A DNA stretch of 27,725 nt. Origin: a virus. The notes under the pieces are model-generated. The model had not been told where the DNA came from. It worked only from the letters and a program-made list of their open reading frames with translations, and ran no database searches. Positions 3,997 to 26,030 of this stretch are shown one piece after another. Where the stretch lies: positions 1-27,725 of IMG/VR virus record IMGVR_UViG_3300027963_000273, one strand, 5' to 3'. The translations under genes were made by a program, and so were the position numbers. How positions within the stretch are numbered: position 1 is the first letter of the stretch; the number at the start of each line of letters is the position of its first letter.

Positions 3997-5397
3997 TTAC
4001 TCCATTAATCCAAATTCTCTAGACAATATAGACCTAACTATTGCTTGATGATTAACATCTTTAGGATTGTATTCTTTATTGCCAAACAATGATTTATTAG
4101 ATTTAATTTTTGCTTCTCGTTCACGCATTAAAGTAGGTATTTTATTTACATCAACATCAGTAATTTTCATGCCATTTTGTTTAATGTATCCAAGTCTAGC
4201 CTCATACAATCGACCTTCTTGTATTTTTGCTTTTAATTTAGCAAGAAATTCAGTAGGACTATCTTTTTGAGGATCAGGAATACCTTTTCTTAAACGCCTT
4301 TCTTCATCACCAGAACCAACAGCAGCACCAGTAATTTGATTAATGTAGTTATTTAACTGTGTATATGAATCTTGAGTAAATCTAGAATAATCTGCTAATT
4401 CAGTAGCCGTTTGTGCATCTGGCTTAATTCCAATTTTTTCACCTTCAGCAACAGCAGTCATCTTTAACTTAAATGGAGTTTCTAAATATTTAGGATTAAA
4501 GTTAGATGCAATGCTTTGTAAATTCAATCTACTTTGACCTAAATCAAGTAGTTGAGTATCTACTTTATTAGCACCTTCTTTACCTAACGGAACTGCTCCG
4601 GCTGGATAATTATTTTGAATTGTTTTATTGGTTGTACTCTCAACATATTGGTCAAAAGTTTTTACTTTTTGTCCTGCTGGAACTTTTGATACATAGTATT
4701 CATAGTTTTTAATATCAGACGTTTTATCACCTGTCGGCGTACCAAAAATAACATCACCAGTTGTAACATCAACAATTTGACCATTAACAACAGCCGTATC
4801 TCTTTTGGTTGGTGCAGTACCTTGAATTAAATCAATTTTTCCATTTGCATCTACTTGGTACTTTTGACCTGCACCTGTAGGTAATTGCTGCTCTAAAACT
4901 TCAGCAGCAGTCATCATTCTTGCTTGTGGTTTATTAGCCGTAAACAAAACTTTACCAGTAGGATCAACTAAATTACCCTCTACAACTATAGGTTTCTTAG
5001 CAGCAGCTTCACGTTCAGCAACTATACGGAATGCACCAGCAGGATTAGTATCAAACTCATCAGCCAAGTCAGGATATTTATTCTTCATAGCCTGTACACC
5101 AGCCTGTTGACGCTGTTGCATCATTAACTGTTGCTGTTGACCATAGTTCTGCACTCCTTGCTGATATTGTTGACCAGCAGCACCATAAGCACCTGCTAGT
5201 GCATTAATAATATTTAATGCAGCAGAACGTCTAGGTCCTTGACCACTCATTCCTTGCGCTAGTGCAGCAGCACCACCTAGTAATCCAGCAAAATTAGATG
5301 AATTTCTAAGAGCATTACTTTGATTTTCACCAAGCAATCCAGTATATGTAGGATTTTCTACACCGAATACGTTAGGAATATAATCAGAAATTGCCAT
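3997..5397 (-). CDS. Putative internal virion protein
   Basis: This is a 466-residue protein. Residues 30-80 are Ala/Gly-rich (NFAGLLGGAAALAQGMSGQG, LNIINALAGAYGAAG). A Gln-rich stretch follows at about 78-105 (GQQQQLMMQQRQQAGVQAMK), and the rest is mixed and mainly helical. It starts at ATG with AGGTGA 5 nt upstream. The glycine-rich hydrophobic N-terminus and the Gln-rich helix resemble ejection proteins of short-tailed phages that form a channel through the cell envelope. It sits between a small glycine-zipper protein and the largest internal virion protein, so these genes probably make one ejectosome-like complex. The exact family was not recognised; a structural role is fairly secure and the ejection role is inferred. 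Confidence 0.7.
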   Translation of the reverse strand: MAISDYIPNVFGVENPTYTGLLGENQSNALRNSSNFAGLLGGAAALAQGMSGQGPRRSAALNIINALAGAYGAAGQQYQQGVQNYGQQQQLMMQQRQQAGVQAMKNKYPDLADEFDTNPAGAFRIVAEREAAAKKPIVVEGNLVDPTGKVLFTANKPQARMMTAAEVLEQQLPTGAGQKYQVDANGKIDLIQGTAPTKRDTAVVNGQIVDVTTGDVIFGTPTGDKTSDIKNYEYYVSKVPAGQKVKTFDQYVESTTNKTIQNNYPAGAVPLGKEGANKVDTQLLDLGQSRLNLQSIASNFNPKYLETPFKLKMTAVAEGEKIGIKPDAQTATELADYSRFTQDSYTQLNNYINQITGAAVGSGDEERRLRKGIPDPQKDSPTEFLAKLKAKIQEGRLYEARLGYIKQNGMKITDVDVNKIPTLMREREAKIKSNKSLFGNKEYNPKDVNHQAIVRSILSREFGLME

Positions 5398-23213: not shown

Positions 23214-23671
23214 GATTGCTCCATGTTAATATCATCATTGGTTTCATACTCTAATTTAGCCATTTTCAGCATAGTCTTTTGACGATCTGTCATAGCAGTC
23301 TTAATGGGACCACCTACAAGCCAAGCCGAACAAGTCCTATCAGCAGCACACTTAAATTCAAAAAGCTCACAATATCCTAACTCAGCACTAGCTACTACTT
23401 CGTTAGCATACGTCTCATTATCCGATTCTTTACCCTGAATACCACCGATAATGCACTTCATCATCTCAGGAGTTTGGATAAACGCAGAGCAGTTACCGCA
23501 ATGCATTGTCTGAGCATTCTTTTCGCTAGTGTTCCATTCCTTAGCTCGAATCTTCCAAAAGTCCTCTGGAGAGTCAGGATTAGCAGGACCATAGCCCACA
23601 TTAGCAAATGCCCAATCACGATTCTTGAGATTTAGCGGTATGTCTGAACAGACTTTAGGGCAAGTTTTCAT
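23210..23671 (-). CDS. Cys-rich phage protein, HiPIP-like cysteine pattern
   Basis: This 153-residue protein has several Cys residues in the central part: HCGNCSAFIQTPEMMKC, then GYCELFEFKCAADRTCSAW. CxxC, a lone Cys, and C...C...C with a following SAW resemble the ligand spacing of high-potential iron-sulfur proteins. It could instead be a zinc site. The same order of motifs occurs in conserved environmental-phage proteins, whose function is unknown. It sits in a chain of genes with ATGA overlaps (both neighbours) between small basic proteins and the decoration-like gene. The iron-sulfur idea is inference; the frame and conserved look are secure. Confidence 0.75.
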   Translation of the reverse strand: MKTCPKVCSDIPLNLKNRDWAFANVGYGPANPDSPEDFWKIRAKEWNTSEKNAQTMHCGNCSAFIQTPEMMKCIIGGIQGKESDNETYANEVVASAELGYCELFEFKCAADRTCSAWLVGGPIKTAMTDRQKTMLKMAKLEYETNDDINMEQS

Positions 23672-23967
23672 TTCTTTTTATTCCTAGCAGAAATAGCAGA
23701 AGCCTTTTTCTTAGCGTCAGCCTTTGAACTTGCACCCCAAGCATTAAGACTCAACAACAGTCTAGTAGGCTCACCATTAGGCTTATGCTCAGGACCAGCC
23801 ATATTGCCCATACGAGCTAAGAAAGATGCTCTACGTGGGTTATCACCACTTTTAACAGGAGCCTTTAGGTTAGAGCCAGAATGTTCAGCCTCATAAGACT
23901 TACGACCTTTCTCGTTAAGCCCACCTTTAGGGTTCTTGCCAGCTTTCTTAGTCCAAGCCGCAGTCAT
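23668..23967 (-). CDS. Small basic DUF6321-like protein
   Basis: This 99-residue strongly basic protein has WTKKAGKNPKGGLNEKGRKS at the start, LKAPVKSGDNPRRASFLARM in the middle, and LSLNAWGASSKADAKKKASA at the end. This motif order matches the DUF6321 phage family as I know it, which has no established function. It begins and ends in ATGA overlaps. Basic charge suggests binding to nucleic acid; position after replication genes and ahead of structural genes does not decide between virion and cytoplasmic roles. Confidence 0.78.
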   Translation of the reverse strand: MTAAWTKKAGKNPKGGLNEKGRKSYEAEHSGSNLKAPVKSGDNPRRASFLARMGNMAGPEHKPNGEPTRLLLSLNAWGASSKADAKKKASAISARNKKK

Positions 23968-24125
23968 TTCTTTGCTTTCTTAGCAGGTTTAGCAGTTTTA
24001 GCAGCTTGCATAAAGTCAGCCTTGGTCGGAGCACCTTTAGCACCTACCTTACGCATCTTCTCGCCCGAACCTTCGGCTATGCGCTTACGTTTAGCTAGGA
24101 TATTACTGTAAAGTCCAGTTTTCAT
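23964..24125 (-). CDS. Small basic protein (53 aa)
   Basis: This short gene runs from ATG 24125-24123 to TGA 23966-23964. The protein begins MKTGLYSNILAKRKRIAEGS, continues GEKMRKVGAKGAPTKADFMQ, and ends in a Lys/Ala tail. It is highly basic, with the GLY.NI..KRKRI..GSGEKMRK layout that I have seen in small phage proteins of unknown role. It overlaps the homing endonuclease stop by 4 nt (ATGA) and the DUF6321-like start by 4 nt, which supports that it is translated. Confidence 0.78.
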   Translation of the reverse strand: MKTGLYSNILAKRKRIAEGSGEKMRKVGAKGAPTKADFMQAAKTAKPAKKAKK

Positions 24126-24568
24126 ATAACACCATTATATAAATTTTCATTTAATGCGGAATGCAAAGGATTTATATCGTTACTTATGCCTTTTTTGTTT
24201 AAAAAATGTGCATATTCAACTAAAAAATCAACTGTTTCTTTATCCCACTCACCACCTCTTTGTGGTCTACACTCATCCCAAGCAAAAACAGCATGAGCTT
24301 GCAAATTTTTGATCTTTAAATATGGTTCAATTTCGTTTAAAAAATCAACTGCTTTAGACCAAGATAATCTCCAACTATATCCTTGTTTCCAATTGTATTT
24401 TCTTAATGACAATGGATTTATATCTCCACCCCATTTTTCTTTAAATTCATTAAGAATATCAATATTTGTATTTGTTACTAATACTCTTGGGAAAATAGAT
24501 GATCTGCACTTAGAAAATCCTATGCAGCCTTCTCCATCAACAAATCCAGCAGCATAATTTAAGTTCAT
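24122..24568 (-). CDS. LAGLIDADG homing endonuclease
   Basis: This 148-residue protein carries one LAGLIDADG motif, LNYAAGFVDGEGCIGF (3-18), with the acidic DGEG at 11-14, and a second family feature, SWSKAVDFLNEIEPYLKIKN (95-114). One motif suggests action as a homodimer. It would cut a specific DNA site and favour its own spread. It is not inside an intron: it stands alone between a DUF6496-like gene and a small basic gene, with 4-nt ATGA overlaps at both ends. Its sequence looks more AT-rich than most of its neighbours, in line with lateral gain. The target is unknown; an intact neighbouring gene junction in a related phage would be a likely site. Confidence 0.85.
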   Translation of the reverse strand: MNLNYAAGFVDGEGCIGFSKCRSSIFPRVLVTNTNIDILNEFKEKWGGDINPLSLRKYNWKQGYSWRLSWSKAVDFLNEIEPYLKIKNLQAHAVFAWDECRPQRGGEWDKETVDFLVEYAHFLNKKGISNDINPLHSALNENLYNGVI

Positions 24569-24729
24569 TTTTTAGTCTTTTTCATTTTTTTTGCTTCACT
24601 ATATGCTATAGCCAATGCTTGTTTCTGAGACTTAACTACAGGACCACCTTTGCCAGAGTGCAATTCTCCTTTACCAAATTCACCCATGACTTTAGCCACT
24701 TTCTTAGCTGCTTTCGATTTCTTCATCAT
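24565..24729 (-). CDS. Small basic DUF6496-like protein
   Basis: This short gene runs from ATG 24729-24727 (or the next codon, also ATG) to TGA 24567-24565. The protein (54 aa) has KVAKVMGEFGKGELHSGKGG, then KQALAIAYSEAKK and a Lys tail. The 'KVM.EFK.G.LHSG' and 'KQA.AIA.SEA' pieces match the DUF6496 family as I know it, found in both bacteria and phages. It overlaps the HNH gene end by 26 nt and the homing endonuclease start by 4 nt. AGGAA lies about 8 nt upstream of the first ATG. Function unknown. Confidence 0.8.
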   Translation of the reverse strand: MMKKSKAAKKVAKVMGEFGKGELHSGKGGPVVKSQKQALAIAYSEAKKMKKTKK

Positions 24730-25006
24730 TTAGCATTTCCTTTACTTGTTCAAGTAGTTGCGTCTCAGTAACTTCATACTGTCGCTCAAAGGCTTTACGT
24801 CCCATTCCGTGGTATCCGGTATTCCCTCGATGGTGCTCAGGGCAAAGCGGTAACGTATCGTAGTGCGAACTCCTAACTCCCATTCCCAAGCCCAAACCGC
24901 GAACGTGGTGAATCTCAGCAGGAGTTCCTGCAAAACCAAGCCTAGTGCAAATTATACAACCTAAATTAGCAACTTTAGATAGATATTTCTTCTGATCTTT
25001 GGTCAA
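24704..25006 (-). CDS. Ref-like HNH nuclease, TTG start
   Basis: This HNH-type zinc nuclease resembles the RecA-dependent Ref nuclease group. With the TTG at 25006 as start, the protein is 100 residues: CIIC (17-20) and LCPEHH (54-59) are the zinc ligands, AEIHHVRG (30-37) is the active His pair, and HRGNTGYHGMGRKAFE follows. TTG is preferred because homologues start a few residues before the first CxxC, and GGAG lies 11 nt upstream. Starts at ATG 25054 or 25135 would overlap the zinc-ribbon gene far more, with unrelated sequence. It lies with the replication genes and may act in recombination or host DNA breakdown. Confidence 0.75.
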   Translation of the reverse strand: MTKDQKKYLSKVANLGCIICTRLGFAGTPAEIHHVRGLGLGMGVRSSHYDTLPLCPEHHRGNTGYHGMGRKAFERQYEVTETQLLEQVKEMLNDEEIESS

Positions 25007-25169
25007 TTTGACGTTTTCTCCACAAATATTTAACTGACGATATTGTCTCTGCATTATTGCACTCAGGACATACATCAACAGCGTCATCAAATGCAAATCC
25101 GCAACGCACCAGCAACACTTCGTCACGTTCACCAATCCAGTTGCAATTATCGCAATAAACTTTATCCAT
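24975..25169 (-). CDS. Small zinc-ribbon protein
   Basis: This 64-residue protein has two Cys pairs, CDNC (6-9) and CPEC (34-37), spaced as in a zinc ribbon, and a basic end. The chosen start is ATG 25169, which has AAGG about 8 nt upstream; an in-frame ATG ten codons earlier is less well placed. It overlaps the HNH nuclease by 32 nt in another frame. The region before it is the only intergenic stretch in the window with genes on both sides reading away from each other. A role in binding nucleic acid or a polymerase is possible; nothing in the sequence decides it. Confidence 0.7.
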   Translation of the reverse strand: MDKVYCDNCNWIGERDEVLLVRCGFAFDDAVDVCPECNNAETISSVKYLWRKRQIDQRSEEISI

Positions 25170-25255
25170 AATATTGACCTTGTGTAATGTAAGTATCATT
25201 AAATTTTGTTATCATTTTCATGCAGTTAGCCGACTGTATTACTTGGGAGAAACAA
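25170..25255. promoter_or_regulatory. Divergent intergenic region, possible promoter
   Basis: This 86-base AT-rich stretch separates a minus-strand gene (starting at 25169) from the only plus-strand gene (starting at 25256). On the plus strand TTGACC (25174-25179) with CATTAA (25197-25202) 17 nt beyond is a possible sigma-70-type promoter; TATCAT at 25194-25199 is closer to consensus but has 14-nt spacing. This would leave a leader of about 50 nt. A ribosome site GGGAGA (25245-25250) lies 5 nt before the plus-strand ATG. No clear promoter was found for the minus direction. Confidence 0.3.
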
Positions 25256-25432
25256 ATGTTTGCATTGAACATTGAAGGCGTAATGTTTTACTTTGAGTCA
25301 GATGACGTAGAGATTTATGAGTTTGATGAAGATGGTGTCGCATGGTGGTTTGATGACGAAGAACAAGTCTGGTACTACTTTGATGACGAGTATTATGACT
25401 GGATCGAGTGTGATGAAGATGATTGCGAATAA
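25256..25432 (+). CDS. Extremely acidic, aromatic repeat protein on the opposite strand
   Basis: The start is set by GGGAGA at 25245-25250, 5 nt before ATG 25256; an upstream in-frame ATG (25220) lacks such a site. The protein is 58 residues with 23 Asp/Glu, 16 aromatic residues and no Lys, Arg or His. Residues 21-58 form about four units of 9-10 residues: YEFDEDGVA, WWFDDEEQV, WYYFDDEYYD, WIECDEDDCE. Such charge and size recall DNA-mimic anti-restriction proteins such as T7 Ocr, but no homology is claimed. It is the only gene on this strand and its stop abuts the convergent gene's stop with no base between. The complementary reading frame is His/Arg/Thr-rich and unconvincing. Confidence 0.7.
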   Translation: MFALNIEGVMFYFESDDVEIYEFDEDGVAWWFDDEEQVWYYFDDEYYDWIECDEDDCE

Positions 25433-25759
25433 TCATTGAGTTGACCTTTCAACTTGACGATTACTAGCTTCTAAACTCCTCCAGCAGTCAACACGAGCCT
25501 GAGCGGCTACGAGCATCCAACGTAGTCGTTCAGCCTCCTCTACAGCCTCTCTAAGTCCTTCTACGCATTCCTTATACTCAACAGTAGTATAAGCATCAGC
25601 TTCTTTTTCAACTACCGTATTTTTTAAACTACGTAAAATTCCCTGAGATTTAACTGTCTTTCTGTAATCGGTCAAATACACTACATTAGCTTTAGCTTGT
25701 GCATAAGCAGTAGCATTCTTAATCATAAAGTTAATTGCTTCGTTCGGATCGATATTCAT
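25433..25759 (-). CDS. Conserved helical phage protein in replication module
   Basis: This 108-residue protein is helical: NEAINFMIKNATAYAQAKAN, VVYLTDYRKTVKSQGILRSL, and then ECVEGLREAVEEAERLRWML and ARVDCWRSLEASNRQVE. The end with 'A.LRW.L.AAQAR...WR.LEA.NR' is a pattern I associate with conserved phage proteins near the replication genes of aquatic short-tailed phages; the function is unknown. It overlaps the VRR-NUC gene by 29 nt and ends next to the convergent acidic gene. A possible site GGAA lies about 9 nt before the ATG. Confidence 0.75.
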   Translation of the reverse strand: MNIDPNEAINFMIKNATAYAQAKANVVYLTDYRKTVKSQGILRSLKNTVVEKEADAYTTVEYKECVEGLREAVEEAERLRWMLVAAQARVDCWRSLEASNRQVERSTQ

Positions 25760-26030
25760 CAGATAGTTTCCATATTAGAGTTTTAGCATCATCAATACTT
25801 GTTACTACATTTACCTGACCTTTCCAGAGCTTATGCCAATTAACTTGATCTGGAGTAAGTACCTTTTTATCACCATCCTTGATCTCAAGCAAGAAATTTC
25901 TAGCTTTAAATCCTACGATAATGTCAGGACAACCTTTACCTACTTCATGCAAATGCTGAACTGTGCAACCCATATCACGTAAAGCCTTAACAATCTGAGT
26001 CTGATTGTTATCTACTTTTTTATAAACCAT
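25731..26030 (-). CDS. VRR-NUC domain nuclease
   Basis: This 99-residue protein is a single VRR-NUC domain, a PD-(D/E)xK-type nuclease of the kind found in phage and in FAN1-type structure-specific enzymes. The start is ATG 26030, in a TGATG overlap with the gene before; four extra codons upstream are possible. Active residues are probably D36 in GKGCPDIIVG (31-40), and E49 and K51 in LLEIKDG (47-53); a Gln in LTPDQVNWHK and a hydrophobic strand NVVTS complete the fold. Standalone VRR-NUC proteins of this size are common in phages and may cut branched DNA during replication or packaging. Confidence 0.85.
   Translation of the reverse strand: MVYKKVDNNQTQIVKALRDMGCTVQHLHEVGKGCPDIIVGFKARNFLLEIKDGDKKVLTPDQVNWHKLWKGQVNVVTSIDDAKTLIWKLSDEYRSERSN

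Follow-up and report, generated by a model that had tools for sequence, protein, structure and literature searches.

What does a phage gain from a 58-residue protein of net charge -23, encoded head-on against its neighbours, and is the reading frame a gene at all? The locus lies in a stretch of 27,725 nucleotides, here called the window, which spans positions 1 to 27,725 of a virus record (IMGVR_UViG_3300027963_000273). In its terminase-portal stretch the window bears a distant resemblance to phage MW202481 (64% over 91%) and to Methylophilales phage Venkman (65.5% over 41%). The frame opens at ATG 25256 and closes at TAA 25430-25432 after 58 codons, giving the protein MFALNIEGVMFYFESDDVEIYEFDEDGVAWWFDDEEQVWYYFDDEYYDWIECDEDDCE. 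An alternative start upstream, at 25220, is not kept: its ATG is missing in the leaders of L017, L025 and L027. A recount of the composition (23 D/E, 16 F/W/Y, 0 K/R, no H) agrees with that of the first-pass annotation, which had also described a well-placed GGGAGA site and a convergent neighbour at zero distance; both descriptions hold, the stop ending at 25432 and the neighbour at 25433. It had counted about four repeats. Three units of 9-10 residues are clear, with turns beginning at D24, D33 and D43, while the fourth, at the N-terminus, is weaker. The features of the locus are these:

25207..25215, plus strand: TGTTATCAT, extended -10-like box, an inferred promoter
25220..25239, plus strand: leader hairpin ATGCAGT-TAGCCG-ACTGTAT, nearly private to the family
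25245..25250, plus strand: GGGAGA ribosome-binding site, 5 nt before the ATG, kept in close relatives
25256..25432, plus strand: gene for the acidic/aromatic 58-aa repeat protein
25433..25759, minus strand: convergent 108-aa gene without a named family, which borders the insertion on the left
24975..25169, minus strand: zinc-ribbon-like gene with its ATG at 25169, bounding the insertion on the other side

The gene was also said to be the only one reading rightwards. It does face every other credible gene of the window; a crude picker of ORFs of at least 40 aa returns 40 on the minus strand and 4 on the plus strand, the acidic gene included, so that three more rightward frames exist on paper, of 41-53 aa.

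An accessory gene inserted against the operon

The 108-aa neighbour offers a handle on the site. It belongs to a widespread family (213 relatives in IMG/VR), with no clear match in Pfam, PHROG or NCBIfam. Using it as a query, we took the best 80 of the 213 relatives and scanned the opposite strand just downstream. In 39 of these 80 loci an acidic ORF occupies the site, in the same orientation, either as the window form or as a form about 40% identical to it; homologues sharing both the repeat and the opposite orientation do exist, and at this very site. In the other 41, no acidic ORF was found within 450 bases of the 108-aa gene. Gene order was read in 21 of the 80 loci, and the empty site is plain to see in L036, L037, L066, L103, L105 and L107: the stop of the 108-aa gene is followed directly by the ribosome site and the start of the zinc-ribbon-like gene. 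The 108-aa protein of L036 and L037 is 87% identical to that of the window, where the interval between the same two genes measures 263 bases (25170-25432), taken up by the acidic gene with its leader. A profile of the acidic protein, run on the whole records of 22 of the 41 loci without the gene, found the gene elsewhere in 0 of 22; as a control, the same profile detected it in all of 30 known carrier records. The acidic gene is an accessory gene, inserted against the operon between the 108-aa gene and the zinc-ribbon-like gene.

The second form has a full frame of 99 aa in all 27 loci read, and holds 2-4 K/R in its first 71 residues, the part that was used in the family alignment, composition and Pfam comparisons. 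It runs into the convergent 108-aa gene on the antisense strand, over 119 nt in L031 (gene at 4206-4505 of that locus), so that both strands code there; the same is seen in 26 further loci.

Coding signal

Fifteen close homologues of the acidic protein came out of the IMG/VR scan, of 56, 58 or 59 residues with the length changes in frame; eight distinct aligned rows are 91-97% identical to the window protein. Among 11 distinct haplotypes the first 150 nt hold 26 variable sites, split 4/2/20 over codon positions 1, 2 and 3. Over these haplotypes pN/pS is 0.066 and the frame is open in all 11, and for the 99-aa form the values are 0.106 and all 24 of 24 haplotypes. Four of the five alternative frames carry stops in 9 to 11 of the 11 haplotypes; the fifth is open in all 11, but with a pN/pS of 6.2. 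The acidic ORF is a real gene under strong purifying selection. The first-pass annotation had let its reading depend, at the level of sequence, on protein homologues and on substitutions that preserve this frame, and both are found.

This signal also settles the reading in which the locus is a cis element or an antisense RNA and its frame incidental. The overlap of the 99-aa form with the convergent gene would suit such a reading, and so would the covarying leader hairpin described below. Selection on both forms, frames open in every haplotype, lengths that differ in frame and the poor showing of the sole other open frame nevertheless leave it next to no chance: the coding signal already rules it out as the only function of the locus.

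A family found in several phage settings

Profiles of the protein core reach relatives in other phage gene settings, and 33 loci were read beyond the two same-site forms. The family alignment comprises 41 distinct proteins of 58-104 residues, with net charges from -17 to -44. Their N-termini vary while the core is constant, following the pattern D.DG..WWFDEE..VWYYFDEE..DW; as members in other settings were found via this pattern, its constancy is partly selected for. Over 37 distinct cores D24, D26, G27, D33, D43 and W49 are invariant, the three turn starts among them; positions 25, 44, 45 and 53 are acidic in every core, with D and E interchanging, and positions 30, 39, 41, 42 and 49 are aromatic in 97-100%. 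In two members (L151, 5881-6183; L203, 5893-6198) an apparent second copy of the core module follows the first.

Gene settings of this wider family are shown for 17 loci, in which phosphoesterase, HNH and major head protein were named by database comparison and the terminase of L149 by our own reading of the sequence. In L153, L157, L158, L162, L169 and L203 the acidic gene follows the major capsid gene and is itself followed by a convergent HNH gene; L156 has the capsid gene, with no HNH gene before the end of the locus. In L153, L157, L162 and L203 the acidic gene and the convergent HNH gene together separate the major capsid gene from the structural gene that comes next. In L149 the acidic gene is upstream of a terminase-like gene. 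Often found beside it is a gene for a protein of about 320 aa, whose N-terminus is helix-turn-helix-like and which includes a calcineurin-like phosphoesterase domain (L151, L165, L168, L172, L178, L190, L194, L202): the two stand side by side in L151, L172, L178, L185, L190, L194 and L202, and one small gene separates them in L165 and L168. This gene occurs in 17 of the 30 records with the acidic gene vs 4 of the 22 without it. It was rejected as a general partner, being missing from 13 of the 30, including all 7 in which the capsid setting was seen. Linkage of the acidic gene to the 108-aa gene is likewise partial (12 of 30 records).

Relatives in these other settings mostly run with their neighbouring genes. 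Reverse orientation is therefore a feature of the window's lineage and not of the family, and the epithets "orphan" and "against all other genes", used at first, fail once the family is considered. What its members have in common is a cassette carrying signals of its own.

Leader, hairpin and terminator

The alignment of leaders retained 21 of 33 distinct ones; left out were nine near-duplicates and those of L147, L149 and L159, from the terminase setting, which are without the hairpin. A TANNAT box is present in 21 of the 21, as TATCAT at 25210-25215 in the window, with TG before it. From their spacing, the box would serve as a promoter and the hairpin would come at the 5' end of the transcript. 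A single hairpin is weak when taken alone (shuffle p 0.00-0.37; 0.06 for the window). Over the 21 leaders, by contrast, the stem of 5 pairs is paired in 102 of 105 cells, vs a mean of 93.1 and a maximum of 99 in 5000 swaps of the 3' parts among leaders. Both sides of the stem change with pairing kept: pairs 2 and 5 occur as C-G or T-A, pairs 1 and 4 as G-C or A-T. In the 99-aa form the -10-like box is retained as TACTAT, but there is no conserved hairpin.

The whole arrangement (TANNAT box, hairpin, GGAG) is found ahead of 16 of 20 acidic ORFs vs 1 of 471 other ORFs in 23 loci, with criteria fixed after the leaders had been seen and with three members of the 99-aa form, below the acidity threshold, counted among the 471. 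The four acidic ORFs that fail are those of L153 (where the start was chosen upstream), L168, L151 and L149. The leader thus defined is common to the window gene and to relatives found in other phage settings. Of 30 distinct members in those settings, 25 have an intrinsic terminator behind them, vs 17 of 299 other ORFs. The window gene has no intrinsic terminator after it, its convergent neighbour abutting; and a scan of 24900-25800 for sigma-70 promoters and terminators found neither. Judging from these motifs, the family usually takes the form of a single-gene package that appears to bring its own signals for start and stop.

Such an organization calls to mind the morons of phages, accessory genes inserted between adjacent genes with a promoter and a terminator of their own. 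The likeness lies in an accessory gene placed between genes that abut in relatives (L036, L037, L066, L103, L105 and L107 for the window site); the TANNAT box would be a candidate for a promoter of its own. The terminator of morons is found in most members from other settings and is missing from the window copy, which we call moron-like, not a moron, because no terminator follows it. No integrase was found in 14 records, some of them possibly incomplete, for which the control was positive in 14 of 14; this absence weakens a prophage role, and there is no sign of expression from a prophage.

Predicted fold and structural neighbours

AlphaFold2, run with 33 family members, predicts an all-beta antiparallel meander without any helix (mean pLDDT 74, pTM 0.50), with block values of 82-86 over residues 21-50; with 8 close sequences the pLDDT is 67. 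In the model the turns begin at D24, D33 and D43, and the aromatics sit on the strands between them. The beta layout that the first-pass annotation had set against the helical fold of Ocr is supported by this model, at moderate confidence. Foldseek against the PDB gave no E below 0.001, the top row being the choline-binding LytA (E=1.1), and VIA-align reached a best Z of 3.3, too low to name a fold. The weak structural rows comprise choline-binding repeats and propeller blades. There is no DNA mimic among the Foldseek and VIA-align rows, which excludes nothing. The best PDB sequence-profile matches (E 0.2 and 0.89, a ferredoxin) were judged to be chance.

What the protein may do

Our first choice, to which we give about one chance in three, is that of a real accessory cassette whose protein is a charged decoy that blocks a host protein binding nucleic acids. 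Transcription of the cassette by host RNA polymerase would not depend on the phage operons and would probably be early, and the hairpin, close to where the transcript begins, may protect the mRNA, a role for which 5' hairpins are known. The protein would then fold into a small meander of beta strands that carry the aromatics, joined by turns that hold the invariant aspartates, and this negatively charged surrogate could bind and block a restriction, repair, recombination, nucleoid or transcription factor. We favour a charge-driven role because the charge is conserved across different N-termini and settings. The family shares with T7 Ocr and other small DNA mimics of phages its small size, its extreme negative charge and the scarcity or absence of basic residues. 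It differs from Ocr, which is helical, in its predicted all-beta meander with conserved aromatics. Against the decoy, the aromatics and W49 are left unexplained by charge alone. The scan that gave no promoter, the window copy's lack of a terminator, the K/R residues and missing hairpin of the 99-aa form and the modest pLDDT also weigh against this reading. The PDB profile, Foldseek and VIA-align searches found no partner, target or solved relative.

The aromatics fit either a mimicry of stacked bases or a binding face of the OCRE/WW kind, and it is from there that the main rival comes, placed slightly lower: a small module, like WW/OCRE or choline-binding repeats, whose aromatic strand surface would grip a host protein by a proline-rich or basic peptide (or by a glycan), with acidic turns that ensure solubility and steer basic partners. 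OCRE, WW and choline-binding repeats are, as here, short tandem aromatic beta-hairpin repeats, and the near-constant aromatic positions of the core speak for this possible role. The matches that go in the same direction are weak and non-significant (OCRE, E=0.097 with the 99-aa form; Choline_bind_1, E=0.52 with another member; LytA at the top of the Foldseek rows), and none reaches a curated cut-off: 13.1 bits vs a gathering score of 24.7 for OCRE (PF17780) with the first 71 residues of the 99-aa form, 11.2 vs 20.5 for the choline-binding repeat (PF01473) with one member, the window protein matching neither. The family is also far more acidic, with a net charge that would be far above the need of such modules. 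Quite improbable is that the protein acts as an acidic chaperone or partner for lysine-rich small proteins of the phage itself. Genes for these do lie near the acidic gene in the window (23668-24729; e.g. 23668-23967, 23964-24125, 24565-24729) and in the capsid-type setting (e.g. L153, L157, L162, L169, L203). Relatives of the window phage without the acidic gene, however, keep them (e.g. L098, L105, L107, L108), and the lysine-rich genes therefore do not need it. The D.DG loop and the later aspartate, with D24, D26, G27, D33 and D43 all invariant, might also make a calcium or magnesium site, to which we would grant a small chance: D.DG is also a usual turn of beta-hairpins, as in the PQQ-blade rows of the PDB profile search, and no metal-binding family was matched.

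Returning to the charged decoy, a more ambitious version of it can be proposed, which we consider rather unlikely. A portable cassette that stands alone, its promoter box conserved and the 5' end of its mRNA structured, would spread among unrelated phages and encode a new class of beta-structured host-takeover proteins. The invariant acidic turns would take the place of phosphates and the stacked aromatics that of bases, making the protein a decoy of single-stranded nucleic acid, aimed at a host protein that is widely shared. In this version the leader hairpin may also act as a control element in its own right.

Relation to described proteins

Being a small accessory phage protein, possibly a charge mimic, the product is of a known kind. 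In the libraries searched there is no counterpart of the family, of its core or of its conserved leader. The window protein and the family have no match above threshold in Pfam, PHROG or NCBIfam; PADLOC, which models defence and not counter-defence, gave none for 5 family members; and no description of the family in the literature appeared, judging from search results and the family libraries (Pfam, PHROGs, NCBIfam, PADLOC). Five named phages that have a related capsid gene (Pag-Yong1, DSL-LC04, HTVC023P, HTVC027P and 023Pt_psg01; L206-L210), and MW202481 and Venkman, related to the window, show no family member in the stretches examined. A tblastn search of phages and plasmids gave no significant homologue, under a low-complexity filter that may hide such a protein. 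DNA searches of phages with three family regions returned none for two of them; a 46-base Vibrio phage match to the window region was dismissed as chance, the protein there showing no core motif. Contigs of bacterial and archaeal genomes yielded 195 and 42 stretches that fit the pattern, of which none was confirmed.

It is among small phage proteins without annotation that functions of host takeover and counter-defence hide. Recognizable by sequence in several different phage settings, with a strict core pattern and its own expression signals, this family suggests a function useful in many hosts, and the acidic protein may interfere with a host protein. Three further proteins are probably members: A0A6J7WIK2, A0A6J5NEZ6 and A0A6J7WGB1, from uncultured Caudovirales phage (BFVD/UniProt), were matched by Foldseek with E of 1.6e-5, 2.4e-4 and 0.027 at 34-41% identity, and are listed as uncharacterized, with no function or family given. 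A0A6J7WIK2 has 99 aa, the very length of the second form at the window site.
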